In this document: in pieces, positions 43,376 to 59,539 of the stretch | Layout: each line of letters begins with the position of its first letter | Position numbering within the stretch: the stretch's first letter is position 1 | Assembly: GCA_018240325.1 (NCBI GenBank) | Contig: JAFEFZ010000241.1 | Span: 19,222-83,221, forward strand | DNA: 64,000 bases | From: Pseudomonadota bacterium | GTDB taxonomy: Bacteria; Pseudomonadota; Gammaproteobacteria; Burkholderiales; Burkholderiaceae_C | Direction of reading: 5' to 3' | Program-made: the position numbers and the translations under genes | Notes under the pieces: model-generated | What the model saw: the letters and a program-made list of their open reading frames with translations, nothing else | Databases searched by the model: none | Told to the model about the DNA's origin: nothing

Positions 43376-43692
43376 GCTTGCCTTCTTCGACGAAGTTGTC
43401 CGCAGGGCCCGCGCGATCCGCGGTGCGCCCGCCCGGGAGCGGAACGGGCGCCGGCCCATTGTGCCCTGCCCCTTCGCACCGGCCCTGCGTCGATCCCGCA
43501 TGGCCGGTCCGGTCTTGGCACCGCCGGCGCGCCGCCCCGAATCGATCGCGGCCAGGGCCTGCCGGCCGCCAGGCCGATGCGGCTGCGGCAGCGCCGCCGC
43601 GGCTGCCGGCCCGCAATCTTGCCCGGCAGCGCGACGCGAGGCAGACTTGCCGGAACCTCTCAGCCTCTCAGGCCAGCCTGCAGCGCACCGCC
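43376..43692. other. divergent promoter region between antiporter and pentapeptide genes
   Basis: 317 bases without a gene. It must contain the promoters of both divergent neighbours. A small palindrome CTTCGACGAAG (43383-43393) just before the antiporter start could be an operator. Nothing else is recognisable. Confidence 0.3.
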
Positions 43693-44973
43693 ATGCCGAC
43701 ACGAGCCGCATCCGCCGGGTTCACCGGCAACCAGGCCGACCTGGACGAGTTCCTGCGGCTGTGCGCCACGCCGCTGCACAGCGGCGCGCGCGGCGAGGCG
43801 CTGGTGCGCTGGCAGATCTACAACACCGTGGCCGTGCCGACCGAAGCTGCGCGCCGGCGGCGCGAGCGGGGCGAAGTGCTGTGGCGCAAGGGCGACCACC
43901 GCTACGAGCCGCGCCGGGTCGACCTCAGCGGCGCGGACCTGGGCACGCTCAGCCTCGGGCGCGTCAAGCTGCGCGGCGCGATCCTCGACCGGGTGCAGGT
44001 GCGCGGGTTCTTCAAGGCCGCCGACTTCCGGGGCGCCCGGTTGCGCGCGGCCGACCTGCAGGGCGTGCAGTTTCTCGGTGCCGACCTGCGCGAGGCCGAC
44101 CTGGGCGGGGCCGACCTGCGCGGCGCATCGTTCGAAGGCGCGCGGCTCGACGGCTGCACGATGGATGCCCGCACCCAGCTCGACGGGGCCGCCTTCGTCG
44201 GCGCGAGCCTGGCGCGCGCCCGGCTTGCGGGCGCCCGCCTCGACGGCTGCGACCTGCGCGGCTGCAGCCTGGTCGGCGCCGATCTGCGCGGCACGAGCCT
44301 GCGCGGTGCGCGCGTCTACGGCTGCTCCGCCTGGGGCCTGACGCTGGACGACAGTGCCGAGCGGCGGCGCACGCTGCATGCCGACCTGTCGATCGACCCG
44401 GCCGGCGGCCCGCTGCCGAGTGCGCCCAACCTGGAGCTGGCGCAGTTCATCTCCCTGCTGCTGCACAACCCGAAGCTGCGCGACGTGATCGACGCCGTCA
44501 CCACGCGCGGCGTGCTGCTGCTCGGCCGCTTCACGCCCGAGCGCATCGCAGTGCTGCGCTCGCTGCGCGACGCGCTCGCGGCGCGCGGCTGGTATCCGAT
44601 GCTGTTCGACTTCGAGCCGCCAACCCAGCGCGATACGCGCGAGACCGCCAAGGTGCTGGCCGGCCTGGCGGCGTTCATCATCGCCGACGTCAGCGACGCG
44701 TCGAGCGTGCCGCTGGAACTGGAGACGCTGGTGACCGACTACGCGCTGCCGGTGATCGTGATCGCCGAAAAGGGCCGGCGCGACTTCGCGATGCTGGACA
44801 CGCTCTACGCGCGCGCGGGCGACCGGCTGTCGCCGCCGTCGCACTACACCGATGCGCGCCATCTGCTGGCCTCGCTGGGCATGCTCATCGACGAGGCCGA
44901 TGCCACGCGCCAGCGGCTGGCGGCCGCGAAGAACCAGCCGCCGGCGTGGCGCGAGCTGCCGCCGGCGCCCTGA
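43693..44973 (+). CDS. pentapeptide-repeat protein with C-terminal TIR-like domain
   Basis: 426 aa. Residues about 75-215 are about 25 pentapeptide repeats (A[D/N]LxG type: VDLSGADLGTLSL, ADLREADLGGADLRGASFEG), which build a right-handed square beta-helix. Residues about 270-400 resemble a TIR-like nucleotide-binding domain: GVLLLGRFTPERIAVLRSLR, LFDFEPPTQRDTRETAKVLA, FIIADVSDASSVPLELETL. This combination occurs in bacterial proteins of uncertain function; TIR domains are often NAD-consuming effectors of anti-phage systems. It sits just outside the duplicated mutS leader bounding the defence island, so it could be part of the native neighbourhood or an older defence gene. No catalytic Glu was assigned. 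Confidence 0.8.
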   Translation: MPTRAASAGFTGNQADLDEFLRLCATPLHSGARGEALVRWQIYNTVAVPTEAARRRRERGEVLWRKGDHRYEPRRVDLSGADLGTLSLGRVKLRGAILDRVQVRGFFKAADFRGARLRAADLQGVQFLGADLREADLGGADLRGASFEGARLDGCTMDARTQLDGAAFVGASLARARLAGARLDGCDLRGCSLVGADLRGTSLRGARVYGCSAWGLTLDDSAERRRTLHADLSIDPAGGPLPSAPNLELAQFISLLLHNPKLRDVIDAVTTRGVLLLGRFTPERIAVLRSLRDALAARGWYPMLFDFEPPTQRDTRETAKVLAGLAAFIIADVSDASSVPLELETLVTDYALPVIVIAEKGRRDFAMLDTLYARAGDRLSPPSHYTDARHLLASLGMLIDEADATRQRLAAAKNQPPAWRELPPAP

Positions 44974-45137
44974 GTGCCCCCAGGGCCTGGCGGCGGGCGC
45001 GCGCATCGGCGCGGCCATCAAGGACAATGGCGGCCGCCGCGCCCGGGCGCCCGGCCCGATGCTGCCGCACCCGCACTGCGCATCCGCGGCCGGCCCGCGG
45101 CGCCAGGCGGGCAGCGTCCGCCGCCCACCCGCCTGCC

Positions 45138-45321
45138 GCACCGCGCCTTCATCGCCACCCGCTTCCTGCCGTGCCCCCCGCCTTCGCTGCCGCTGCACCG
45201 TCGCCGCGGATCACCCGCCATCGGCCGCCGCTTCGGGCCATCCGCCGCCGCAGGCGCCAACCGCCCCCGGCACCACATGCCGGCCGCACGAACGAAGAAT
45301 GAATCGCGAGCAGGACCTGTC
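45138..45321. repeat. left copy of the 184-bp duplicated mutS leader
   Basis: Identical to 56799-56982 except for three transitions (near 45144 and in CGGATCACCC against CGGGTCGCCC), with no indels. It contains the mutS leader and its first codons (ATG at 45299, MNREQDLS). The match stops abruptly at 45321. The preceding 44974-45137 holds no gene; a 14-base match (CATCAAGGACAATG) at 45017 recurs at 56682. Confidence 0.95.
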
Positions 45322-45805
45322 CGCGACGTGGGCTCGTCAGGCGCGCGGATTCGCTGTCGCCGTGGATCGCGGGTACATCGCTCGCGTCGGCAACACGCAC
45401 TACCACGCGCGGAGCATCGAAGCTGCCATCGCCGGCGTTCGCCGCAAGCAACGGGTCGCAACTGGGGAGACTGTGGCGCGACGCTCGAGCTACTCGCTGA
45501 CGATCGACGAATTCGTCCGGCGCTACCTGCGCTATGACATCACGGTGACTCTCGACGACGCCCGCGAAACCGGCTCGTGCGAGTTCGGCATCCGCTCGTG
45601 GTGTGACGCCGTCGGCCTTGACTACGAAGCCGCAGAAGCTCCGATGGCCGCGGTTCTCGCCGGGTTCCGGAGGATGCCGATGATCGAAGTGCGGCGCGCG
45701 GTGATGCATGCCGTTCGGGAACATCGGCGGCTGATGCGCAAGACACAGGCACTGGGCGGTCCCACCACCCCCGCGAACGCAGAGGAGGAGCCCTGTTGCG
45801 TGTGA
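45299..45805 (+). CDS. hypothetical protein using a duplicated mutS start (chimeric ORF)
   Basis: 168 aa ORF whose first eight residues (MNREQDLS) and start signals are those of MutS, after which the sequence is unrelated: ATWARQARGFAVAVDRGYIA, then HYHARSIEAAIAGVRRKQRV, YSLTIDEFVRRYLRYDITVT, TGSCEFGIRSWCDAVGLD. The foreign part resembles hypothetical proteins of phages and mobile elements, with an ARSIEAA / TGSCEFGI layout, but I cannot name a function. Its original start was presumably lost when the island joined the duplicated mutS leader. The frame is intact, so it may be expressed from the mutS signals. Confidence 0.6.
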   Translation: MNREQDLSATWARQARGFAVAVDRGYIARVGNTHYHARSIEAAIAGVRRKQRVATGETVARRSSYSLTIDEFVRRYLRYDITVTLDDARETGSCEFGIRSWCDAVGLDYEAAEAPMAAVLAGFRRMPMIEVRRAVMHAVREHRRLMRKTQALGGPTTPANAEEEPCCV

Positions 45806-45836
45806 CGACTCCGCCCACGTCGAATGTGCAAGGGGT

Positions 45837-48671
45837 CTACCACCCGCGCATGAGCTGCTCCCGCACCGCCTGTGCATCCAGCACCAGCGGGGAACTCTCC
45901 CAGTCCGCGTCCTCCACCTTGCTGTACTTGGCATCGAAGGGGTTGCGGGTCGCCGCCGTGCGGTCGATCAGCCGCCGCGCGGCCTGCTCGTCGGCCAGCG
46001 CGATCTGCACCCACACGTCCTCCAGCGTGTCCGGGATCTGGCCGAACAGCTGGTGGATCGACGCCAGCCGGTCGGCCAGCACCTGGTGCACCCGGTCTTC
46101 CACCGACCCGCGGTAGCGCAGGTTGGCGATCCACACCTCGCTGCGCTGCTGGCCGATGCGCTGGATGCGGCCCTTGCGCTGCTCCAGCCGCGTCGGGTTC
46201 CACGGCAGGTCGATGTTGATCAGCGTGCCCAGCCGTTGCAGGTTCAACCCTTCCGAAGCCGCATCGGTGCCGAGCAGCAGCTTCAGTTCGCCGGCGCGCA
46301 CGCGCGCCTTCAGCCACTCGCGCTCGCAGCGCTGGAAGCGCCCGCCGCTCCACAGGCCCGAGCGGTTGCTGCCGGCGTACAGGCCGATCTCCATGTCGGC
46401 GAACTCGGGCCGCTTCGCCAGCTCGTCGCCCACCCAGCGCGCCGTGTCGTAGTACTGCGAGAACAGGATGCACCCGCGGCCGATCCAGCGTTCGCCCACG
46501 TCGCTGCGGGTGCCGAGCAGGTAGCCGGGCACGGCGTCGAGCTTGGGATCGTTGCTGCCCCCCTGGCGCAGCAGCGCCAGGCAGCGCTCCAACGACGCCG
46601 CCTCCGCCTTCGTGAAGTCCTTGAAGTCCGACACGGCGGCGGCCGGCTGCCCGTCCGCGTCAGCGCCGCCGTTGCCGCCGTTGCCGCCGTTGCCGCCGTT
46701 GCCGCCGTTGCCGTCGTCGCTGTCGTCGTCGTCCTCGTCCGTCGGCTCGTCGGGCGTCGCCCCCAGCAGCTTCATCACCGTGCTGCGGCCGGCCTCGATC
46801 GAGCTGCCCAGCCGGCGCAACAGCAGCGTCTTGAAGAAGCCGGCACCGCGCACCCGCTGCTGCAGCAGGCGGCAGAAGTGCTCCGCCTCCCCGTAGGCGT
46901 CGCGCAGGTAGCCGCCCAGGCCGAGCGCATCGGCATCGTCCTCGCCGAACAGGCGCACCTGCACTTTCGGCAGGAACCAGCTGCCGGTCGCCGGGTTGAC
47001 GGTCGCCTCGAGGTAGCCGCGCGTGCGCCGCACGATGCAGCGCAGCAGCGGGTTGAACTGCGCGCCGTAGCCCGGCAGCACGCCGTTGGCCAGTTGCACG
47101 CGCCGGATCGCCGGCGACAGCCGCTCCAGCATCTCGGGCGTGAACTGCCAGCTGCTGTCGTCTGCATCCAGGTTGCGGCGAATGCGGTCGAAGGCAGCGC
47201 CTTCCACGCGTGCCGGCAGCGGGTCGCGCACGTACTGCCAGCCGGCCACCACGTCCACCGGCACGCCGGCGTCGCCGGTAGCCACCGCGAGGCAGTGGCT
47301 CGCGCGGAACCACGGACTGGTGCGCGTCCAGCCGCCGAGCACGCCGTCGTTGCCTTGCGACAGGATGTCCAGCAGATCCCAGGCCTCCACCGGGTGCAGC
47401 TGCACCGGCGTGGCGGTGGCCAGCAGCATGCTCTTGGTACGCGGGCCGATCTGCTTCAGGAAGGCCATCAGCTTGTTCGGGTCGGCGCGCTCGTCGACCT
47501 CGTCGGGGCCGGCGTCCACCTTGGGCACGTTGCGGCGGCGGGCGCGATGCGCTTCGTCGACGATCACGCAGGCGTATCGGCGCGCCAGCAACTGCTGCAA
47601 GGCCTCCGGCTGGCCGCGCACCACCAAGCCCTGCGAAACCAGGCCGATGCGGCGCGGGCACCTGCCGAGCGCCTTGACGCCGTCGGACGGGTATTCGAGC
47701 TCGTTCTCGTCCACCCAGGCGCGGCCGTTCCAGCGCGCCGACGGCAGCTGCAGCAGCTCCATCAGCTCGCCCTGCCACTGCTGCAGCAGCGGCTTGGGCG
47801 CCAGCACCAGCACCGGAGCGCCGTCGGCGTCGTCCAGCGCCATCAGCAGCGCCGCCATCGCCAGCTGCACCGTCTTGCCCAGGCCCACCTGGTCGGCCAG
47901 CACCAGGCGTGCACCACCCAGGCGGTGGCGCTGCAGCGCCAGCTGGGCAAAGTACTTCTGGTGCGGCCACAGCCCCTGCTCGCGGCGGTACACCGGCGTT
48001 TCCACGGCCGCGGCCGCGGCGGCAGCCTGGGTGTCGGTAGTGGCCTGCCACTGCGGCGGCTCGATCACGCGGCGCACGGCGATGCGCCGCACATCCTGCG
48101 CGATGAACGGGCACACGCTCAGGTCCATCGCGCGCGGGTCGTTCCACAGCGCGTCGAACTCCTCCTGCACCCAGGCCACCGCGTCGGGCGAGTCGTCCTC
48201 CCACAGCAGCTCGTAGTTCAGCCGCCAGGCCGAGGCGCTTTCGTTGACGCTGCCCAGGAAGGCCGTGGCCGTGCCGTCGGCGCGGCGGATCACGCCCGCC
48301 TTCCCGTGGACCAGGCCGAAGGCTTCGTCGGGCAGCACGCGCACCTCGACGCGCCGGCTGGTCAGCGCCTCGTACAGCGCCCGGTAGCGCGGCAGCGCCG
48401 CCGGCGGTGCCGCCTCGGGCTGTCCAGCGCACCAACTGCGCCGCAGTGCCGCCTGCGCGGCGGCCGCGGTCACCAGGTCCTGCGGGTCGAGGTCGGAGTT
48501 GCAGACGATGCGCACCGGCCCCTGCACCTGCTGCAAGGCTTCGCCGGCCACTTCGAACAGGCTCGAGCGGAAGTAGCCGGCAATGCGGTCGTAGGCCACC
48601 GCACCGGCCAGGCGCTGGCCGAGCACCGTGCAGTCGAGACGCTGGCGGCGGCTGGAGTGCCGGTTCAGCAC
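45837..48671 (-). CDS. PLD-domain SNF2-type helicase of the defence operon
   Basis: 944 aa. The N-terminal part (about 1-200) has a phospholipase-D-like HxK motif (LVHGKAGVIRRADGTATAFL, then GSVNESASA). It is followed by a Snf2/SF2 helicase: LADQVGLGKTVQLAMAALLM (Walker A GLGKT), CVIVDEAHRARR (DEAH), LLATATPVQLHPVEAW, and the C-terminal LLGTDAASEGLNLQ and QRKGRIQRIGQQ (motif VI). A linker with acidic run DEDDDDSDDGNGG and Gly-Asn repeats splits the helicase lobes. Such PLD-helicases accompany DUF1156/DUF499 genes in defence islands. Last gene in the operon, 31 bases after the antitoxin. Confidence 0.9.
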   Translation of the reverse strand: MLNRHSSRRQRLDCTVLGQRLAGAVAYDRIAGYFRSSLFEVAGEALQQVQGPVRIVCNSDLDPQDLVTAAAAQAALRRSWCAGQPEAAPPAALPRYRALYEALTSRRVEVRVLPDEAFGLVHGKAGVIRRADGTATAFLGSVNESASAWRLNYELLWEDDSPDAVAWVQEEFDALWNDPRAMDLSVCPFIAQDVRRIAVRRVIEPPQWQATTDTQAAAAAAAVETPVYRREQGLWPHQKYFAQLALQRHRLGGARLVLADQVGLGKTVQLAMAALLMALDDADGAPVLVLAPKPLLQQWQGELMELLQLPSARWNGRAWVDENELEYPSDGVKALGRCPRRIGLVSQGLVVRGQPEALQQLLARRYACVIVDEAHRARRRNVPKVDAGPDEVDERADPNKLMAFLKQIGPRTKSMLLATATPVQLHPVEAWDLLDILSQGNDGVLGGWTRTSPWFRASHCLAVATGDAGVPVDVVAGWQYVRDPLPARVEGAAFDRIRRNLDADDSSWQFTPEMLERLSPAIRRVQLANGVLPGYGAQFNPLLRCIVRRTRGYLEATVNPATGSWFLPKVQVRLFGEDDADALGLGGYLRDAYGEAEHFCRLLQQRVRGAGFFKTLLLRRLGSSIEAGRSTVMKLLGATPDEPTDEDDDDSDDGNGGNGGNGGNGGNGGADADGQPAAAVSDFKDFTKAEAASLERCLALLRQGGSNDPKLDAVPGYLLGTRSDVGERWIGRGCILFSQYYDTARWVGDELAKRPEFADMEIGLYAGSNRSGLWSGGRFQRCEREWLKARVRAGELKLLLGTDAASEGLNLQRLGTLINIDLPWNPTRLEQRKGRIQRIGQQRSEVWIANLRYRGSVEDRVHQVLADRLASIHQLFGQIPDTLEDVWVQIALADEQAARRLIDRTAATRNPFDAKYSKVEDADWESSPLVLDAQAVREQLMRGW
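46671..46715. repeat. 9-bp tandem repeat inside the helicase gene
   Basis: Five copies of GTTGCCGCC (the last with one change) encode a Gly-Asn-Gly run in the interdomain linker. Copy-number changes would keep the frame. Confidence 0.85.
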
Positions 48672-48702
48672 GGCAAGGCGCGGGCCCCGGCGCTGGGTGG
48701 CC

Positions 48703-48936
48703 TCACTCGTCGCCGGCCACGGGCGTGCGCACCGGCACCCTGTCGAGCACCGCCGCCAGCGCAGCCGGGTCGGCGCGCTCGGCGCGCTGGCGCAGGTAGG
48801 TCTCGGCGGTGATCGCGGCGATCTTCTCGGTCACCGCGCTGGCCACGAACTGATCGACGGCAACGCCGTCCTGCGCCGCCATCTCCTGCAGGTGGCGCTG
48901 GATCGACTGCGGCAGTTTCAGCGTGATGGAGGTCAT
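48703..48936 (-). CDS. ribbon-helix-helix type antitoxin
   Basis: 77 aa: MTSITLKLPQSIQRHLQEMA followed by QDGVAVDQFVASAVTEKIAA is a typical N-terminal ribbon-helix-helix/toxin-antitoxin antitoxin pattern, with a C-terminal tail that would wrap the toxin. It overlaps the PIN toxin stop by four bases (ATGA), so the pair is co-translated. Toxin before antitoxin is the less common order. Confidence 0.8.
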   Translation of the reverse strand: MTSITLKLPQSIQRHLQEMAAQDGVAVDQFVASAVTEKIAAITAETYLRQRAERADPAALAAVLDRVPVRTPVAGDE

Positions 48937-49367
48937 CGCAAACGCTCCAGAAGTTGCTTGGGGTTCAGCACCTCGATGCCGAATTGTGCCGCGGGCCCGA
49001 AGTCGCGCCCGTTGAACGTGACGATGCACCGGGCGCCGGCCGCGACCGCCAGTTCGAGCACCATGTCGTCCTTGGCATCGCGAAGCATCGGGCGCCACAG
49101 GAAGTGGATGCGCTGGTGGTCGGCCAGTGCGCACAGGTTGTCGAGCACGGCATCGATGTCGCGCCCGCTCAGGCCCAGCGCTTCGGGATCGCGGCGCAGC
49201 ACGTCTTCGTACTCGAACAGCAGCGGCGTCGACAGCACGATGCGCACCCGCGCGGCGGCCACGGCGCGCAGCAGGCGGTGCGACTGGCCGCTGGCCGAAT
49301 ACAGGCCGGCATAGAGCACGTTGGTGTCCAGCACCACGCGCGGCGGCGGGGCCACGGCTTCAGGCAT
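48933..49367 (-). CDS. PIN-domain ribonuclease toxin
   Basis: 144 aa PIN protein: RVVLDTNVLYAGLYSASGQS (first Asp), STPLLFEYEDVL, DAKDDMVLELAVAAGARCIV (acidic centre), and TFNGRDF near the C-terminus. It resembles the 'putative toxin-antitoxin system toxin component, PIN family'. Its start overlaps the end of the DUF1156 methyltransferase by 8 bases, placing the toxin-antitoxin pair inside the defence operon. Confidence 0.85.
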   Translation of the reverse strand: MPEAVAPPPRVVLDTNVLYAGLYSASGQSHRLLRAVAAARVRIVLSTPLLFEYEDVLRRDPEALGLSGRDIDAVLDNLCALADHQRIHFLWRPMLRDAKDDMVLELAVAAGARCIVTFNGRDFGPAAQFGIEVLNPKQLLERLR

Positions 49368-52182
49368 GGTCGTTGCGCAGCCGGCCGGCGAGGATGCGCG
49401 CCGCCTGCGAATCGGCGGCCCATTCCTCCATGCCGGCGGCGTTGGCCAGCAGCGCCAGCCATTCGAGCAGGCCGACGAAGCGTTCGCGCCGCATCCAGTA
49501 GCCTGGGCCGAAGGTGTCGCGCAGGTACTGGCGGCCGGGCTCAGGGTTGGCGTCGGCGGCCGCGGTCTCGCGCAGCGCGAACAGCAGGTGGCGCAGCGGC
49601 GACGCGGCGAACGGATGCGGCGCGCCAGTGGCGGCGCGCCCGCGGCGGGCCGGCAGCACGGCGGCCGCGCCGTCGCCACCGCCGACGGGTGCCAGCACCG
49701 CAGCGCCGAAGCCGCTGGCGGTGCGCATGCGCGCGCCGTTGGCCTTGTCGCTTTCCAGCAGCGGCCTGATGTCGGTGACGCCGAAGCCGCGCGCCAGCTC
49801 CTCGTACATGCCCTGGCGGCGTTCGCCGCGGCTCTCGATGTCGAGGGCGCGCAGGTAGTAGCGCTCGGCCAGGTTCAGGTCGCGCCACGCGCCTTCGAGC
49901 CCGCGCGGGATCAGCGTGTCGCAGGCGATGCCCACCGCGCGCTCGATCACCGCCTGGAAGTCGCTCTTGTCGCCCTTGGCACGCACCGCGAACACCTCGT
50001 GCTCGACGTCGCGGCCGTCCAGGCTGCCGTACTGCGTCAGCACCTTCAATGCGGCGGCATAGGCCGCGAGCTGGTAGTCGGCGTCGTTGAAGTTGGGCTC
50101 GCCGCCCTCGTCCAGCGCCTGCATCGAGGCGAGCTGGCGCTTGACCTCGTCTTCGACCAGCGGATACACCTCGTCGAGGAAGCCGGACTCGCTGCCGATG
50201 CGCTTGCGCAGCACCAGACACACCGTGCCCTGCACGTAGTTGCCCTTCTTGATGCCCGATGCCTCGGTCTCGGTGCTGATCGTCCAGGCGGCGGTGGCCT
50301 TCAGCCCGGCGGCCCACAGGATCATGCCGAGGTCGGCCCACACCGCCGGGTTCTGGTGCGTGAACATCACCAGCTGCATGCCGCCGTCGGGCATGTGGGC
50401 GGCGAGGTTGCGGTAGATCTCGACCATCGAGCGGCGGAAGTCGTCGCCGTCGCCGCGCACCGCGAGTTCGGCGCGGGCGTCGGGGACCCATTCGGGGAAC
50501 GCGCGGGCGAGCTGCTTGTCGTACCAGGCGAGGAAGAAGTCGCCGAGCTCGTGGTAGTTGACGGCGTCGGCGTAGGGGGGGTCGGTGAGCCAGAGGTCGC
50601 AGTTCGCTTTGACGTCGCGTGCGTCAAGCACTGCAACATCGCCGGTTAGTTGACCGTCGACAACCCCCGCAAATGAAGCCTGGGAAAAAACCAGCGTGGT
50701 CAGCGGTCGAGTCGAATAGTTGAAGAGAGTGTTCAGCGCTTGGTTCAGGAAGGTATTCTTTCCACGGCCCATCTGGGTACGACTCGACAGCCAACAGCTC
50801 AGCCGAGAGTTCCAGTCCGCGAATCTGCTGACACTCAGCATCGCCGCTGCCAATGACTCCTTCGTGCCCGTAGCCGTTAGCTGACTCATGAGCAGCCCAT
50901 GAACCAGTAGCTGTCTCGGCGTGAACAGGTGATGCCAATGCGTCCAGCCACGCGTGCGAATCGGCTCTTCGGTCTTGTCGCCTCCCGCTGGAATGGCCTT
51001 CGAAGGAATGAAGCCCTGCCGCTGCCAGTCGACAAAGCGCTCGCGCAGCAGCGCCAGCACCTGCTCCTCGCGCGCCAGGTCGTCGGTATCGGGCGCGGCG
51101 TAACGGCGGCGGCCGTCGGCATCGACCCAGCGGATGCAGTACAGGCGCTCCTGGAACATGTCGCCCGGGCGCGGCACGAGGTCGTCGTTGGTCCAGCGGC
51201 GCAGGCCGTCGGGGCCGCGCAGCGCCTCGACGCTCCAGCTTCGGTTCGGGTTGAAGGGGTCGACCACGCGGCTGTCGACCACGGTTGCGCCGTTCTTCGC
51301 CTTGTGGCGCTTCAGTTCGGCGTCGCCCACGGTGGCGATCTCGGGCCGCAGGCGGTCCGATCCCGGTACGCGGTGCCAGCGCGCGATGACCCCGCTGTAC
51401 TCGTCGACCAACCAACTCGGTGACAACGGGATGTAGTAGTTGCAGCCCTCGGGCTTGACCTCGACGCAGTACACGAAGGCTTCTGCGCGCTCGCCGCGGG
51501 CGTTGTGCTCGATGCCCCACTCGGTCACCTGCCGGTCAGCGGCGGCCAGCGCCTCGGTCTGCACGCGCATCACCTCGACCTGCACCTCGGGCCCGCCGCC
51601 CAGCAGATTCAGGCTCGCCCAGGTCAGCAGCCCGGCGACCGGGTTCAGGTCGGAGCCGAAGGCGTCGCAGCCGATGCGCGCCGCCTCGAAGGGGATCGAG
51701 CCGCCGCCGCAGAATGAATCCCCCACGCGTGGGCGGTGGCCGAAGGCGCGCCGACCCAGCTGGTCGACCAGCTCGGGCAGGCTGGCCGCGCTGGTGCCCA
51801 GGTGGTCGTTGACGCTCGCCCAGGCCTCGACCGAGGGGCCGGCGGCGTTCTCGGGCCGCGCGCAGTGGGCGATGCGCTCGGCATAAGGCAGCGCGTCGAA
51901 GCCGGCGCGGCCCAGCCTGCGCTGCACGGCAGGCTTGCAGCGCGCCCAGGCGCCGTCGTCGTCCATCGTCAGGATCTGCAGGAAGACCTTGCGGTCCTTC
52001 TTCGCGTCGGCCGACGCCGGCATCAGCATGCCGACGATCGCCGCGCGCACCAGCACCAGCGGCTTGCGGCCCCACCACTTGCCCAGGCCGGTCAGCGTCT
52101 GGCTGGCCCCGGCCTTGCGCTCCTTGTAGCTCTCGGCCGACAGCCGTGCGATCGGGAACTGGGTTTCGATGAACGCGGGCAT
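49360..52182 (-). CDS. DUF1156-type DNA (adenine-N6/cytosine-N4) methyltransferase
   Basis: 940 aa. The N-terminal DUF1156 block (FPIARLSAESYKERKAG...LTGLGKWWGRKPLVLVRA) is followed by an SAM site DSFCGGGSIPFEAARIGCDA (about 155) and DPPYADAVNYHELGDFFLAW (about 535), whose DPPY is the amino-methyltransferase catalytic motif. It should methylate host DNA, either as self-marking for the defence system or as an effector component. From about 50625 to 51010 (residues about 390-520) base composition is visibly more A+T-rich than the rest. It is 13 bases downstream of the DUF3780 gene and overlaps the PIN gene. Confidence 0.9.
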   Translation of the reverse strand: MPAFIETQFPIARLSAESYKERKAGASQTLTGLGKWWGRKPLVLVRAAIVGMLMPASADAKKDRKVFLQILTMDDDGAWARCKPAVQRRLGRAGFDALPYAERIAHCARPENAAGPSVEAWASVNDHLGTSAASLPELVDQLGRRAFGHRPRVGDSFCGGGSIPFEAARIGCDAFGSDLNPVAGLLTWASLNLLGGGPEVQVEVMRVQTEALAAADRQVTEWGIEHNARGERAEAFVYCVEVKPEGCNYYIPLSPSWLVDEYSGVIARWHRVPGSDRLRPEIATVGDAELKRHKAKNGATVVDSRVVDPFNPNRSWSVEALRGPDGLRRWTNDDLVPRPGDMFQERLYCIRWVDADGRRRYAAPDTDDLAREEQVLALLRERFVDWQRQGFIPSKAIPAGGDKTEEPIRTRGWTHWHHLFTPRQLLVHGLLMSQLTATGTKESLAAAMLSVSRFADWNSRLSCWLSSRTQMGRGKNTFLNQALNTLFNYSTRPLTTLVFSQASFAGVVDGQLTGDVAVLDARDVKANCDLWLTDPPYADAVNYHELGDFFLAWYDKQLARAFPEWVPDARAELAVRGDGDDFRRSMVEIYRNLAAHMPDGGMQLVMFTHQNPAVWADLGMILWAAGLKATAAWTISTETEASGIKKGNYVQGTVCLVLRKRIGSESGFLDEVYPLVEDEVKRQLASMQALDEGGEPNFNDADYQLAAYAAALKVLTQYGSLDGRDVEHEVFAVRAKGDKSDFQAVIERAVGIACDTLIPRGLEGAWRDLNLAERYYLRALDIESRGERRQGMYEELARGFGVTDIRPLLESDKANGARMRTASGFGAAVLAPVGGGDGAAAVLPARRGRAATGAPHPFAASPLRHLLFALRETAAADANPEPGRQYLRDTFGPGYWMRRERFVGLLEWLALLANAAGMEEWAADSQAARILAGRLRNDHA

Positions 52183-52195
52183 GGGGCGACGGCGA

Positions 52196-52834
52196 TCAGA
52201 GGTTCAGCGACAGTTGCGAGTGGCCCAGCAGCTCGCGCCGGGCTCGCGGCGACATGCCCTCGCCCTTGACGAAGGGGTTGTCGGCCAGCGCGGCCCGCAG
52301 CGCCTTGCGCCAGCCGATGCCCTTTTGCAGCGCCTGGCCGGTGGTGGCGACGGTCATCGTGTAGAGCCACCAGCGCTCCTCGGGCGCGAGCGCTTCCCAG
52401 TTGCGCAGCGCGTTCGGGATGTCGGCGGGCGGCGCGTCTTCCACCGCCCAGCACAGCACGCACAGCTCCTTGCCCAGCGACGCGTGCAGCGGCACCGGCC
52501 GGGCCGGGTTCTTGACGAACTTGGCCACCGGCAGGCCGTTGGCGCGCAGGCGGCGGTTGGCCTCTTCCCAGAAGGCAGGGGCCAGCGCCAGCCAGCGGGC
52601 GCGGTCGATCAGCACGCGCAGCGCAAGGTCGGCCGGGTTCAGCGGCGCGCTGTGGCGTTCGCCCAGGCCGTCCAGGTCGGCGCCGCGGTGCTCGGAGATG
52701 CAGACCATCGCGTCCAGGGCCGCGCCCTTGGGCACGTCGACCAGGAAGCCGTGGCGCGCCTCGTCGGGCAGGAAGCCCAGGCCGACGGCCGTGCGGCCGG
52801 CGGCGCCCTGGCGGCGGGTTGCGGGGCTCACCAT
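52196..52834 (-). CDS. DUF3780 family protein
   Basis: 212 aa protein with features I associate with DUF3780: VGLGFLPDEARHGFLVDVPK, the R..W..LAPAFWEEANRRL helix, and PEERWWLYTMTVATTGQAL. No enzymatic motif is visible. DUF3780 genes occur almost only between DUF499 and DUF1156 genes, as here (3 and 13 bases from its neighbours). It is probably an accessory subunit of the defence complex. Confidence 0.85.
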   Translation of the reverse strand: MVSPATRRQGAAGRTAVGLGFLPDEARHGFLVDVPKGAALDAMVCISEHRGADLDGLGERHSAPLNPADLALRVLIDRARWLALAPAFWEEANRRLRANGLPVAKFVKNPARPVPLHASLGKELCVLCWAVEDAPPADIPNALRNWEALAPEERWWLYTMTVATTGQALQKGIGWRKALRAALADNPFVKGEGMSPRARRELLGHSQLSLNL

Positions 52835-52837
52835 GGC

Positions 52838-55800
52838 TCAGTCCTGCTGCACCTTGGCCATGTCGAAGGGCTGGTGGGTGGCGCGCAACCAGTCGAGCAG
52901 CGCCTGCCCGGTGGTGAAGGCGAGCGAGCCGACCGTCATGCGCAAACCGCCGGGGCCGACGATGTCCTGCAGCTTGTCGGCAGCCTGCTTCAGGCTGGCG
53001 GCGGAGTAGCCCGAGTCGAGCGCGCCGGAGTATTCGACGTGCTGCAGCCCGTCGGCGCTTTCGGCGCTGAGCTGCAGGTCGTGCGCGATCACGGTGGCGG
53101 CTTCGTCCAGGCGCTGGATGAAGTCCCACACCGCGCCGGCGTCGTCGAGCTTGGCGCGCTGTGTCCAGCGGGCCGGCCGGGTGGGGTCGAGCCTGGGCCC
53201 GTCACCGCCAGGCTGCGGGATCGGGATGCGCAGCACCTCGGAGTTGAGGCCGAAGGCGCCGGCCACGGCGATGGCGCTCACGATCCGGCTGCCCGCGGGC
53301 ACGCGCAAGCCGCCGTCGTAGGTGGCTGCGCCGACATGGGTGGGCGCGGAGCCGTCGGTGGTGCAGCGGATCTCGATGCCGGCGGCGCGCGGCAGCGCGC
53401 GCAGCTCCACTTCGAAGTGGTCGCCGCGGTTGTGCAGCCGGTACTTCAGCCGGATGCGCGCCGACCATTCCTTGACCGGGCTGACGCGGGCGGGGTCCGC
53501 CGGGTCGTGCGCCAGGAAGCGGTAGCGCAGCGCCGTAGCCTCGAAGCGCGCCGGCACGGGCACGGGGCTGGAGGCGGGCGTCGGGTCAGCGTCGCCGGTT
53601 TCGAAGACGACGGCGGGCGCATGCAGCGGCTCGACCTTCAGCCAGGTGCGGCCGTCGCCGTCGTCGTCCACCGAGAGTTCGCGTACTTCCACCGACGGCG
53701 CGGGCGGCGGGAACGGGCCGCGGCGCACGTGGTTGCCCTCTTCGCGCCACAGGCCGCGGCGCAGGCATTCGGCCTTCAGGTCGTCCAGCGCCGAGGTCTT
53801 GTGCAGCGGCCAGTTGGTGTTGACCGCGGCGTTGCGCTTGAAGTCCGACCACAGCACGACCTTGGTCTCGACGCTGCCGAAGAGCCGGGCCTCGGCGCGC
53901 GAGCGGAAGGCGTCGTCGTCGAACTTGACGGTGAACTTCTGCGCGCCTTCGAGCGTCTGGCGGATCGTGGCTTCACCGCTGCGGTTGCCGGCAAAGGCCA
54001 GGTCGACGCCGGTGGCGCGCAACGCGGTGTTGATGCTGGGGTAGACGATCTGGTCGAAGGCCTCCTTCAGCGCGGCGTTGAACTGCAGTGCGATGCGGTC
54101 ACGCAAGGCGTCGAGTGCGCGCCATTGCGGGTCGTCGGCGGGGGTCTGTTCCTGGCGCAGCTCGTCTTCGATGCTCTGCAGTGCGCGAGTCTGGCGGGCC
54201 GAGTCGATGACCTTCTGGAAGGTGTCGCGCGAGCCGGTGAGGAACAGCACGCGGTTCTTGTACTGCTGCTGGCCCCACCAGCCCTGCCAGTCGGCCGAGA
54301 TCGGCAACTGGTTGGCCTGCCCGCCGGGGCGCACGACGACCAGCGTCGTCTTCTCCTGCTCGAGCTGCACCTCGTCGGGCGGCGGCAGCACCTTCACCAT
54401 CTGGTAGCAGTCGCGCAGACTGGCGGCGAAATGCTGCTCGAGGTGCTCGCGCAGCATGCGATCCACCGTCTCGGCGTGCAGCGACAGGGCGGTGGCGCGC
54501 AGCTTGGCGGCCAGGTTCTGCTGGTTCTTGAAGTAGAGCCGCCCATCGGCCGAGTTGTGCAGATACCAGGCGCGCGTGGCCAGCTTGTCGAGCACGTTGG
54601 CCTTGAAGGTGGACAGGTCGCGCCCCGGGCGCTGCAGACAATCGACGAGCTGGTATTCGCGCAGGCCGTGGATGGCGCCGGGGGTGGTGGACAGCGACGC
54701 GACGAGGATCAGGCGGGCCGCGTCGGAGGCGTCGGCATTGCCGTTGGCGAGGTCGATCTGCTCGGCTTCGGCGTCGCCGCCGTGGGCGATGTCGTGCGCG
54801 ATGGCTTCGCTCAGCGACGGGTTGATGGTGCGGATTTCGGAGGCGATCTCGTCGACGTTGAGGTCGATGTCGTAGGGGTGGATCAGGTCCCTGCCTTCGG
54901 CCTTGCCGGTCTTCCACAAGTCGGCTACCACCATCTGCATCAGGCGGATGACGCCGCGGGTCTGCTGGAAGCCCTCGTTCTCCTTGAACTTGCCGACCAG
55001 CTCGCGCAGGTCGGGGTGGAAGGGGTAGGCATCGACCAAGCGCGAGAACAGCGACTCGGGCGCGGTGGTGGTGAGGTTCATGCGCACTGCCTCGCGCAAG
55101 GCATCGCGGTAGGCGCCGGCAATGCGCTCGACCTCGGCTGGAGGCGCCACCGCCGAGAACAGCCGCTTGCGCAGGATGTGGTACAGCTCGTCGCCGTTGG
55201 GGTTGACCGGCGTGATCGGCACCGCGATGCGCCGGGCCTCGGCGCTGATGCCCTGCACCGCGCGGCCGAACGCTGCCTGCAGGCTGGCCTGGCCGACGGT
55301 GAAGTTGGTGCCGGCCAGATCGGACAGCACCAGGCAGACGTTGTCCATCTCGGCGACGGCGACGAACAGGTTGGCCAGCGCGGTGGTGGTGACGACGCCC
55401 AGATCGGCATTGCCCACCGGCACGGCGACCGCGTATTCGAGGTACGGCGGCAGCTCGTCGAGGAACAGCACCAGCGGGTCGCCGCCGAGCAGCTGCTTCC
55501 AGGCTTCGGGGCCCGGCGCGCTGAGCAGCGGCGACACGTAGCGGGCGAACTGGCCGGCCTTGCCCAGCTGCTCGGCGATCGAACCCCAGATGCCGCCCGG
55601 GGCGTCGGTGCTGCGGCCGTTGAAGCCGACGACCCGGCAGCGGCCGAGCCTGGGCGCGGGGTCCTTGTCGCCCAGCACGCGGCGCCGCAGCTCGGCGTCC
55701 TTGGCCAGCAGGCCCAGGCCGATCATGCTGTGCGTCTTGCCGCCGCCCATGGCCTGCGACAGCAGGAAGACCGATGAGCCCGCGCCGTTGCCCGACAGGT

Positions 55801-55972
55801 GCCTGAAGGCGCGGTCGACCAGCGCGACCATGCCGTTGGTGAAGTAGTTCTCGTCGAAGAACTCGCCGCCATGCACCTTGCCCTGGAGGAACGTGTCCAG
55901 GCTGAGGACCGTTGCGCGGCGGTCAGCGGCGAAGACCGAGTCGCGGGGGGTGCAGTGGGTTTTGAGTGTCAT
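52838..55972 (-). CDS. DUF499 AAA+ ATPase of the defence operon
   Basis: 1044 aa, first gene of the operon. A P-loop near residues 73-81 (LLSQAMGGGKTHSMIGL) and Walker B LVLFLDELPPYLEY define the ATPase. NLTTTAPESLFSRLVDAYPF and RGVIRLMQMVVADLW are typical DUF499 segments, and a long C-terminal region (about 780-1044) has beta-rich folds. DUF499 ATPases are found in defence islands with DUF1156 methylases and helicases; a role in sensing or translocating DNA is presumed. Start: ATG at 55972, an MTLKTHCTPRDSV N-terminus typical of this family. Confidence 0.88.
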   Translation of the reverse strand: MTLKTHCTPRDSVFAADRRATVLSLDTFLQGKVHGGEFFDENYFTNGMVALVDRAFRHLSGNGAGSSVFLLSQAMGGGKTHSMIGLGLLAKDAELRRRVLGDKDPAPRLGRCRVVGFNGRSTDAPGGIWGSIAEQLGKAGQFARYVSPLLSAPGPEAWKQLLGGDPLVLFLDELPPYLEYAVAVPVGNADLGVVTTTALANLFVAVAEMDNVCLVLSDLAGTNFTVGQASLQAAFGRAVQGISAEARRIAVPITPVNPNGDELYHILRKRLFSAVAPPAEVERIAGAYRDALREAVRMNLTTTAPESLFSRLVDAYPFHPDLRELVGKFKENEGFQQTRGVIRLMQMVVADLWKTGKAEGRDLIHPYDIDLNVDEIASEIRTINPSLSEAIAHDIAHGGDAEAEQIDLANGNADASDAARLILVASLSTTPGAIHGLREYQLVDCLQRPGRDLSTFKANVLDKLATRAWYLHNSADGRLYFKNQQNLAAKLRATALSLHAETVDRMLREHLEQHFAASLRDCYQMVKVLPPPDEVQLEQEKTTLVVVRPGGQANQLPISADWQGWWGQQQYKNRVLFLTGSRDTFQKVIDSARQTRALQSIEDELRQEQTPADDPQWRALDALRDRIALQFNAALKEAFDQIVYPSINTALRATGVDLAFAGNRSGEATIRQTLEGAQKFTVKFDDDAFRSRAEARLFGSVETKVVLWSDFKRNAAVNTNWPLHKTSALDDLKAECLRRGLWREEGNHVRRGPFPPPAPSVEVRELSVDDDGDGRTWLKVEPLHAPAVVFETGDADPTPASSPVPVPARFEATALRYRFLAHDPADPARVSPVKEWSARIRLKYRLHNRGDHFEVELRALPRAAGIEIRCTTDGSAPTHVGAATYDGGLRVPAGSRIVSAIAVAGAFGLNSEVLRIPIPQPGGDGPRLDPTRPARWTQRAKLDDAGAVWDFIQRLDEAATVIAHDLQLSAESADGLQHVEYSGALDSGYSAASLKQAADKLQDIVGPGGLRMTVGSLAFTTGQALLDWLRATHQPFDMAKVQQD

Positions 55973-56798
55973 CAGGCATCGAGGGCAATGGTCAGACGGA
56001 CTGCAGCGGTCCCAGGGTGCCGCCGAGCTTCGTGATGGTGCCGGCGGATCTCATGCTGCGCAGCCATGGACCGCCGGCGCCGCGTACTGTTGAGGGATCA
56101 CTTCAGCCGACGACGAGACAGGGGCGAAACCACGGGCCTCATCCGCATGCCAGAGCCCGTCGACCGCGAATCGGGCCTCACCGGCGCACGGCCGCTGCAT
56201 CGCGAAGTTGCCGCCACCAAGCCGACGTGGCGCTTGCTTCGGATGCCTCCCTTCGCAGCCGACGGATTGTGCCGCCTGAAGCTTGACGACCGGCGTTGCC
56301 CGCGTGTGCCGAATTGCTCGCGCCGATGCGGTGGCCGGCGTCCATCCCGGCCTTCCGGCCGAGGAAGGCCGCGAAGTCCTTCCAGCTTGCGTCGTCCGCC
56401 CGCGTGTCGAGCAGCCTGTCGCAGAGACGCTGCATCGCCTACTCGACCGCGTCGATGGTGTTCGCCCGTGGACCCCGCTTCACACTTGATCGATAGTCTT
56501 CGAGTCATTGCTCGGGCAAGGCGTGCATTTCGCTCCGGCGGAAGGTCGTTGCCGATGATCAGGCCAGGGTAATGCCCAACTGTCGTCGATACCACTCTCG
56601 CGCCGACCCTGCGAAGGAATGCGTATGACTACTTGGTGCGGGTGACCTGCACACCGAAGCCCACAGGTGCGCCCTCGTGGGCATCAAGGACAATGCATGA
56701 TCTGCCGTCGGGGCTTGGTCTGCTGGTCGATGCATCCGCCGGTCACGTCGGCAACTGGCTTGTGCTCGATGATGAGCACCGCTCGCCGCCCGTATTGC
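55973..56798. other. gene-poor right end of the defence island
   Basis: About 830 bases between the DUF499 start and the right repeat. It must hold the promoter of the minus-strand defence operon. Short frames exist on both strands (for example an 85-codon frame, minus, 56178-56435, with DTRADDASWKDFAAFLG; and a frame containing [20 protein letters not shown], plus, 56630-56790). None has convincing start signals or recognised similarity, so they are best regarded as remnants. Confidence 0.5.
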
Positions 56799-56982
56799 GC
56801 ACCGCGCTTTCATCGCCACCCGCTTCCTGCCGTGCCCCCCGCCTTCGCTGCCGCTGCACCGTCGCCGCGGGTCGCCCGCCATCGGCCGCCGCTTCGGGCC
56901 ATCCGCCGCCGCAGGCGCCAACCGCCCCCGGCACCACATGCCGGCCGCACGAACGAAGAATGAATCGCGAGCAGGACCTGTC
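56799..56982. repeat. right copy of the 184-bp duplicated mutS leader
   Basis: This copy joins the intact mutS gene and is thus the original leader and start. The partner copy is at 45138-45321, 11.5 kb to the left, same orientation, three mismatches. The repeat begins in mutS-upstream DNA at GCACCGCGC and ends inside codon 8 of mutS. Confidence 0.95.
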
Positions 56983-59539
56983 GGCCCACACGCCGATGAT
57001 GCAGCAGTACCTGCGCATCAAGGCCGAGCATCCGGCGACGCTGGTGTTCTACCGGATGGGCGACTTCTACGAGCTGTTCTACGACGACGCGCGCCGCGCG
57101 AACCGGCTGCTCGACATCACGCTGACCACCCGCGGCAGCAGCGCCGGCGAACCGGTGGTGATGGCCGGCGTGCCCGTGCATTCGGTCGAGAGCTACCTCG
57201 CGCGGCTGCTCGCGCTCGGCGAGGCGGTGGCGGTGGCCGAGCAGGTGGGCGATGTCGCCACGGCCAAGGGGCCGGTGGAGCGCAAGGTCACGCGCATCGT
57301 CACGCCGGGCACGGTCACCGACAGCGAGCTGCTCGCCGAGCGCGCCGACACGCTGCTGCTGGCGCTGCACCTGCAGCGCGGCCGCATCGGCCTGGCCTGG
57401 CTCGCGCTGGCCGGCGGCCGCCTGGGCATGGCCGAGTGCAGCGAGGCCGAATTCGCCGGCTGGCTGGCGCGGCTCGACCCGGCCGAACTGCTGTTCGACG
57501 GCAACCCGCTGCCGCCGGCCGCGCTGGCGCTGCGCGCCGCGCGCACGCCGCGCCCGGCCTGGCAGTTCGACACGGCGCTGGGCCTGCGCAAGCTGTGCGC
57601 GCAGCTGAAGGTCGCGTCGCTGGCCGGCTACGGCGCGCAGGCGCTGGCCGCCGCGCAGGCCGCCGCCGCGGCGCTGCTGAGCTACGCCGAGCACACCCAG
57701 GGCCAGGCGCTCGCGCACGTGACCCGGCTCGAGGTCGGCCGCGGCGGCGACCTGCTCGAGCTGCCGCCCACCACCCACCGCAACCTCGAGCTGACGCAGA
57801 CGCTGCGCGGCGAGCCGGGCCCGACGCTGCTGTCGCTGCTCGACACCTGCGCGACCGGCATGGGCAGCCGCTGCCTGCGCCACTGGCTGACGCACCCGCG
57901 GCGCGATCGTGCCGATGCCGTCCAGCGCCACGCCGCGATCGCGCGGCTGGCCGATGCCGGCTTCGACGCGCTGCGCGCCGCGCTGCGCCGCGTCAGCGAC
58001 GTGCAGCGCATCACCGCGCGCATCGCGCTGCGCCAGGTGCGCCCGCGCGAGCTGGCGGGCCTGCGCGCCACGCTGCTGGCGCTGCCGGCACTGCGCGCCG
58101 CCGCGCCCGCGGGCAGCGCGCTGCTCGACGCGCTGCATGCGGCGCTGCAACCGGCGCCGGCGATTGCCGAAGCGCTCGCCGCGATCGCCGACGAGCCGGC
58201 GGTGCTGCTGCGCGACGGCGGCGTGATCGCCGCCGGCGTCGATGCCGAGCTCGACGAGCTGCGCGCGATCGGCCAGAACTGCGACGCCTTCCTGCTCGAG
58301 CTCGAGCAGCGCGAGCGCGCGCGCACCGGCATCGCCAACCTGCGCGTGCAGTACAACAAGGTGCACGGCTTCTACATCGAGGTCACCAGTTCCAACCTCG
58401 ACCGCGTCGGTGCCGACTACCGGCGCCGGCAGACGCTGAAGAACGCCGAGCGCTTCATCACGCCCGAGCTGAAGGCCTTCGAGGACAAGGCGCTGTCGGC
58501 GTCGGAGCGCGCGCTGGCGCGCGAGAAGTGGCTGTACGAGCAACTGCTCGACGCGCTGCAGCCGCACCTGGCAGATCTGGCGGCGCTGGCCGACGCGCTC
58601 GCCGCGCTCGACGCGCTCGCGGCGCTGGCCGAGCGCGCCGCCACGCTCGACTGGTGCCGGCCCGAGTTCGTCGCGCACCCGTGCATCGACATCGAAGCCG
58701 GCCGCCACCCTGTCGTGCAGGCGCGGCTGGCCGAGACCGGCGCCGGCCCCTTCATCGCCAACCACTGCCGGCTCGACGCCAAGACGAAGCTGCTGGTGAT
58801 CACCGGGCCCAACATGGGCGGCAAGAGCACCTACATGCGCCAGGTGGCGCTGATCGTGCTGCTGGCGGCGATGGGCTCCTACGTGCCGGCCGCCGCCTGC
58901 CGGCTGGGGCCGATCGACGCGATCCACACCCGCATCGGCGCGGCCGACGACCTGGCCAACGCGCAATCGACCTTCATGCTCGAGATGACCGAGGCGGCGG
59001 CGATCGTGCACGGCGCGACCGACCAGAGCCTGGTGCTGATGGACGAGATCGGCCGCGGCACCAGCACCTTCGACGGGCTGGCGCTGGCCTCGGCGATCGC
59101 CTCCCACCTGCACGACCGCAACCAGAGCTTCACGCTGTTCGCGACCCACTACTTCGAGCTGACCGAATTCCCGGCGAAGCACGAGCGCGCGCTCAACCTG
59201 CATGTGGGCGCGGTGGAAAGCGGCCACGACATCGTGTTCCTGCACCAGATCGAGCCCGGCCCGGCCAGCCGCAGCTACGGCGTGCAGGTCGCGCGGCTGG
59301 CGGGCATGCCGCCGGCACTGATCCGCCGGGCGCGGCACACGCTCGAGGCGCTGGAGCAGCAGGCGCAGGCCGGCCATGCGCAGATCGACCTGTTCGCGCC
59401 GCCGCCGGCCGCAGCCGAAGCCGCGCCGTCGGCGCTGGAGGCGGCGCTGGCGCGCATCGACCCCGACACGCTGACGCCGCGCGACGCGCTCGAAGCGCTG
59501 TACCGGCTCAAGTCCCTGCAACGCACCAAAGCCCCATGA
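56960..59539 (+). CDS. mutS: DNA mismatch repair protein MutS
   Basis: 859 aa, full length. Mismatch-contact motif [20 protein letters not shown] (Phe-x-Glu) near residue 35, clamp/lever regions in the middle, and an ABC-type ATPase: Walker [21 protein letters not shown], signature [13 protein letters not shown], Walker [18 protein letters not shown], and [10 protein letters not shown]. It recognises base mismatches and recruits MutL. Start is the ATG at 56960 ([17 protein letters not shown]); internal ATGs at MMQQ are alternatives. The following hydrolase gene overlaps its stop (ATGA). Confidence 0.98.

Follow-up and report, generated by a model that had tools for sequence, protein, structure and literature searches.

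A Type-2 BREX-related cassette between direct 184-base copies of the mutS leader, and its probable insertion at the mutS start

The island upstream of mutS and its genes

The window studied here, i.e., the whole 64-kb stretch of DNA that was analysed, contains an intact mutS gene and, upstream of it, an island of genes placed between two direct copies of the mutS leader (Table 1). Four minus-strand genes of the island, at positions 45837-55972, matched the PADLOC and Pfam models for a DUF499 ATPase, a DUF3780 protein, a DUF1156 methylase, and a PLD-helicase. Of these, only the methylase and the helicase passed the curated NCBIfam cut-offs. The ATPase scored 82 bits with PF04465 (cut-off, 23) and 724.9 bits with NF042962, below the cut-off of 1200, and the standalone DUF3780 gene scored 136.6 bits with PF12635 (cut-off, 27) and 128.4 bits with NF042961, below the cut-off of 200. 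For the helicase, Pfam listed PLDc_2 at residues 53-176, followed by SNF2 and Helicase_C, and did not list TUDOR.

A DUF499 ATPase, a standalone DUF3780, a DUF1156 methylase, and a PLD/HKD-helicase define the Type-2 BREX-related (BR) class in the available text of its description (PMC12839542). The island contains all four genes, has the HKD/PLD helicase domain in place of TUDOR, and shows Fn3-like matches in the C-terminal part of the DUF499 ATPase. Judged from the encoded proteins, the composition of the cassette is that of a Type-2 BR system, for which phage restriction and N6-adenine specificity are predicted only. Unlike the systems in that text, the island has a PIN toxin-antitoxin-like pair (48703-49367) between the methylase and the helicase; the pair shows an operon-like overlap and covers the methylase stop codon.

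Recombinase, transposase, or integrase genes were not found among the island ORFs scanned with Pfam, PADLOC, NCBIfam, and further profiles. The lack of an integrase, which had been noted in a previous interpretation made from the letters of the DNA (hereafter, the sequence-only reading), is thus borne out for the ORFs tested. The same reading described about 11.5 kb of defence-type genes; this description holds for 45837-55972, and the two ends of the island (45322-45836 and 55973-56798) gave no defence-family match. For the 826-base segment at the right end, comparison with plasmids and with 199 further genomes of the order found no relatives.

The tetranucleotide correlation of the island was 0.948, as compared with 0.938-0.960 for six other segments of the window. 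As the island is no different from the rest of the window in this respect, we dropped composition as proof of foreign origin. No tRNA genes were found in the 64-kb window. To the left of the island, positions 43684-44973 encode a pentapeptide-repeat protein with a long C-terminal region, which had matches (1e-10) of 40-43% identity in 5 of the 59 other congeners sampled.

Table 1. Positions of the repeats, genes, and other features at the mutS locus in the window
Feature	Position	Strand	Evidence
14-base match upstream of left repeat	45016..45029	+	Identical to 56682..56695
Left repeat copy: mutS leader, start codon, codons 1 to 8 (codon 8 partial)	45138..45321	+	181/184 vs right copy
Predicted chimeric ORF, 168 aa: C-terminal part of gene E joined in frame to mutS codons 1-8	45299..45805	+	Homologue comparison
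PLD(HKD)-SNF2 helicase	45837..48671	-	NF042964 above curated cut-off
Small gene, probable antitoxin; weak HicB/Arc-like matches, no Pfam match	48703..48936	-	Profile searches
PIN-domain toxin-like gene, overlapping the methylase gene end	48933..49367	-	PIN_3, TIGR00305
DUF1156 DNA methyltransferase	49360..52182	-	PF06634; NF042963 above curated cut-off
DUF3780 protein	52196..52834	-	Above Pfam cut-off, below NCBIfam cut-off
DUF499 AAA+ ATPase	52838..55972	-	Above Pfam cut-off, below NCBIfam cut-off
Stretch of 826 bases from the ATPase gene to the right repeat, without convincing gene	55973..56798		ORF scans and relative searches
14-base match upstream of right repeat, five bases out of register	56682..56695	+	Identical to 45016..45029
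Right repeat copy: leader and first 7 2/3 codons of intact mutS	56799..56982	+	Pairwise comparison, own-genome search
Intact mutS, 859 aa, five MutS domains	56960..59539	+	Pfam

The duplicated leader and the truncated gene at the left junction

In the pairwise comparison, 181 of the 184 bases of the two repeat copies, which have the same orientation and are 11,661 bases apart, were identical. All three differences are transitions (45147 C/T, 45210 A/G, and 45213 A/G); they may be allelic differences brought by a donor or later mutations. Identity is lost sharply at both edges, where only one more matching C (45137/56798) extends the repeat to 182/185, and the right edge is the second base of mutS codon 8. 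The similarity is far beyond chance. These results confirm the near-identical direct repeats of 184 bp, with three transitions and an end in mutS codon 8, that the sequence-only reading had described, and the length and domains of mutS agree with its assignment of the right copy to an intact gene. The own genome (G000, a draft in 321 contigs, contamination 1.87%) has no other strong copy; the next best of five matches was 69% identical over 128 query bases. Likewise, blastn self-comparison of the 64-kb window gave no further repeats of at least 40 bases and at least 88% identity, and no sigma-70-like promoter match was found in the leader. The island does not have the form of a composite transposon: the flanking repeat is the mutS leader, its copies in the own genome are only the two, and there are no flanking insertion sequences.

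A 14-base match outside the repeat had been taken as a hint that the homology was once longer than 184 bases. The match is present; its left copy starts at 45016 instead of the 45017 first given, and the offset of 11,666 places it five bases out of register with the repeat. When neighbouring bases are counted, it extends to 18/20. First-order Markov simulation produced a 14-mer no more than 10 bases from the register once in 20,000 runs, this limit having been chosen after the match was seen, and unrestricted local alignment gave p values of 0.0115 to 0.015. The occurrence of the match upstream of both copies is suggestive; beyond this one short out-of-register match, nothing points to a longer homology, and no similarity was seen in the stretch of 100-odd bases between the match and the repeat.

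The left copy was said to enter a foreign reading frame, and homologue comparison strengthens this claim, as the frame is that of a 5'-truncated gene (gene E). The piece at 45320-45802 corresponds to the C-terminal ~160 residues and continues the frame of mutS codons 1-8 from the repeat edge onward. Five full-length relatives came from a pattern scan of GTDB genomes: one on the G137 contig and the others in Thiomonas delicata, Rhodoferax ferrireducens, Thauera propionica, and one other bacterium. Counted from the first ATG of the open frame, they have 350 to 445 residues, of which 207 to 299 are N-terminal of the start of the window copy. From these comparisons, the left junction cuts a gene, and the 168-residue chimera is a predicted product that could be made. 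Among 299 other genomes of the order, three had matches to gene E. The match in G137 was 50% identical and covered residues 2-151 of a 161-residue query; the other two were short and weak, at 33-35%. The fragment also has a weak likeness (E 2.3e-5) to a family of phage tail-assembly chaperones. No relatives were found in viral contigs (22 pattern matches), and phages gave no match. On plasmids, the window piece had no match and a full-length relative had a single partial one, at 31% over residues 99-227 in Microvirga terrae.

The missing N-terminal half of gene E is absent from the window according to a profile of the five homologues. A search of the own genome with a full-length relative found only the known piece (E 1e-8; scores for 5 of the 19 first candidates). 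To the eye, the right 826-base segment seemed to end in the missing half, as if a circle had been opened inside gene E. We rejected this circular permutation because six-frame alignment gave no significant match (best p 0.068 for the whole region and 0.024 for a target chosen post hoc) and the profile found only the known C-terminal part, with the next best E value, 0.067, elsewhere.

The locus could also be an artefact of assembly or binning, in which sequences of two strains were joined at the mutS leader. Misjoins favour repeats, and the genome is a draft with many contigs and some contamination. However, a misjoin at the leader alone leaves the joint between mutS and gene E at codon 8 unexplained, and no long shared sequence is apparent at this joint because the relatives of gene E have other residues before that point. 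The repeat copies also differ at three sites. We consider an artefact quite unlikely.

mutS loci and related cassettes in other genomes

The sequence-only reading predicted an empty site in close relatives, in which the pentapeptide-repeat gene would be joined to mutS through a single leader. Such a site was not found. A 602-base probe of the leader and the mutS start found a match in 68 of the 81 congeners, one of them being the own genome; the alignments of the other 67 began at query position 164 or later, in coding sequence, and none reached the leader. With the leader alone as the query against 100 relatives, the matches outside the own genome were at most 48 bits and none was at the mutS position. 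The leader is known solely from its two copies in the window. In G365, which gave the earliest-starting match, a different gene precedes mutS, and the upstream DNA resembles the leader only in scattered bases. The regions upstream of mutS are mostly dissimilar among the congeners (alignments longer than 150 bases in 13 of 190 pairs). In 20 congener loci (~4 to 18 kb), no genes of the left flank or the island were found upstream of mutS except for a weak AMP-ligase match (L100, 26% identity). DNA comparison placed the hydrolase gene downstream of mutS in six congener loci. An ancestral neighbourhood of the pentapeptide-repeat gene and mutS is an assumption.

Two other candidates were rejected. 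The antiporter gene of the left flank was found in 22 of the 81 congeners (own genome counted). In G360 and G017 it shares a contig with mutS, at distances of about 248 and 269 kb, and it does not fix the ancestral neighbour. As for the mutS start as an insertion hotspot, a long duplication of the mutS start was found in none of the 20 congener loci; weak matches to it, of 19-41 bases and one of them inverted, were seen in four.

A DUF499 match at 1e-20 was found in 12 of 81 congener genomes including the own genome. The closest relative, in G359, is 88% identical, and the others are 29-33% identical. The G359 cassette has the four BR genes in the same order with 82-83% DNA identity, and the DNA homology with the window ends at both ends of these genes; the PIN pair had no match in it. 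In G359 (C22, L173 11920-14835), a tyrosine integrase gene lies directly after mnmE and before the cassette, and a gene with a Toprim domain lies after the cassette. A mutator-family transposase gene interrupts the DUF1156 methylase of the same cassette (L174 5140-6411). Downstream of the integrase, no exact match of at least 13 bases that could be a second attachment repeat was found in the compared stretch (best inexact match, 17 bases, 94%, E 0.065), and no flanking direct repeat was seen around the cassette. The mutS gene of G359 is on a different contig from the cassette. In G368 (C12, 130663-152322; L176/L177), the BR system, a 33% relative, lies between two identical direct copies of a 2,620-base IS21-family element, an arrangement like that of a composite transposon.

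We compared the flanks of 12 other BR loci. Nine of the 11 other congeners that matched DUF499 contributed one locus each (in G026, one of its two places), and another three loci came from 3 of 10 other genomes. Flanking repeats were the IS21-family pair in G368 and matches of 29 and 42 bases in G371; the other ten had none. A duplication like that of the mutS leader was found at none of the 12 loci, at least four of which (those of G003, G035, G371, and G052) were cut or incomplete. Because the G359 copy lies near a tyrosine integrase and the G368 relative lies between IS21-family copies, the cassette is mobile cargo found in several kinds of carrier, and the version in the window probably lost its integration module or never had one.

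Origin of the duplication

The sequence-only reading offered two mechanisms for a mobile defence cassette, integration by homologous recombination through a carried mutS leader and a site-specific event. The mobile cassette agrees with our results. Between the two mechanisms we lean to host recombination; no positive sign of a site-specific event was seen. We consider it probable, though well short of certain, that a Type-2 BREX-related cassette on broken mobile DNA was inserted at the mutS start and left the 184-base direct duplication of the leader and first codons.

We infer that the incoming molecule would have lost its integration module and would have carried a near-identical mutS leader. 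A circle with the cassette and the leader would have been broken and closed again, so that codon 8 of mutS became joined to gene E at about codon 208. Then, a single crossover in the leader between the trimmed, re-circularised molecule and the chromosome would have left the chimera at the left end and a restored mutS at the right end. This is the simplest route, with every step beyond the sequence being one that we infer. No donor was found in the genomes searched. In Escherichia coli, single crossovers with a circular plasmid whose homologous segment had been partly lost gave duplications of 109-950 bp in 14 sequenced clones, according to the available text of PMC3240628. The likeness is in the integrated DNA with a direct duplication of a chromosomal segment; laboratory plasmids were used there, whereas the incoming molecule is postulated here.

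Linear DNA from a conspecific donor with the cassette upstream of mutS would give an identical final sequence by one-sided homologous recombination (homology-facilitated illegitimate recombination). The mutS side of the donor would have recombined homologously, and the other end, broken in gene E, would have joined codon 8 of the recipient mutS. This route accounts for the broken left gene and the allelic-looking differences, but the reported events, as far as given in the same text (PMC3240628), mostly deleted recipient DNA of about the insert size, and here there is a duplication. The joints reported there were mostly in micro-homologies of 3-10 bp. No such donor was found, and we regard this route as possible but unlikely.

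Site-specific integration would require that the element brought an attachment region that restored mutS and that its integrase was lost or acted from elsewhere; the own genome has three tyrosine-recombinase matches, all outside the island. Precedents exist for elements that target 5' gene ends, such as SpyCI at mutL (PMC3430984) and the GInts (PMC5385486), and in the accessible part of PMC2647930, prophages of Pseudomonas fluorescens occupy the interval from mutS to cinA. Site-specific insertion with long target duplication has also been proposed for a Helicobacter restriction cluster (PMC4978471, in part). The SpyCI islands resemble the present case in that they, too, are mobile DNA placed where a mismatch-repair gene begins (for them, the 5' end of mutL); unlike them, as described in the text available, the island has no integrase that we could find, and mutS keeps its leader, whereas SpyCI parts mutL from its promoter. 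The GInts, with a ginABCD operon, have repeats of only 10-11 nt in the text seen (PMC5385486), as opposed to 184 bases and no integrase found here. With no recombinase among the island ORFs tested, the locus lacks the make-up of a tyrosine-integrase island; in addition, no long mutS-start duplication occurs in the 20 congener loci, and the left edge falls within unrelated coding sequence. We judge a site-specific event to be very unlikely.

Restriction-modification genes have been found inserted with duplications of their target that are on the order of 100 bp long (PMC3874152; also PMC3031569 and PMC1643837, all in the portions available). This insertion with long target duplication is attributed to Nobusato et al. 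(2000) and Furuta et al. (2010) by papers that cite them. The island has the structure of such an insertion, with a long duplication of host sequence, restriction-type genes, and no recombinase among the ORFs scanned. Both cases have methyltransferase-bearing defence genes, a long direct duplication (order of 100 bp) of host sequence, and no transposase or integrase found. Here, in contrast, the genes are a Type-2 BR cassette, the duplicated gene start is in frame with a truncated foreign gene, and an empty allele was not found among the congeners. To the extent of the sources available, the insertion signature is uncommon but already described for restriction genes in other bacteria, and the present locus would carry the pattern, exemplified in those sources by Helicobacter restriction genes, over to a different group and a BREX-related system. 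Limited literature searches gave no title that joined long target duplication with DUF499/DUF3780/DUF1156 systems.

RecA recombination between the repeats is expected to remove the island and restore one leader, and the mutS product suppresses recombination between imperfect repeats. In a bolder reading, the cassette would spread by capturing a host leader, which would serve it as a portable arm of homology; host recombination would suffice and the target gene would always be rebuilt. As the target is mutS, the state of mismatch repair would then gate the gain and loss of the island, and the left leader would drive the chimeric gene of mutS and E. We think this reading very unlikely.

Within one genus, BR cassettes were found in three settings, beside an integrase, between IS21-family copies, and without an integrase at mutS. 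These settings make the movement of defence genes without a recombinase of their own a testable question. Relatives of the ATPase were found in 147 of 72,556 plasmid records, all with less than 60% identity.
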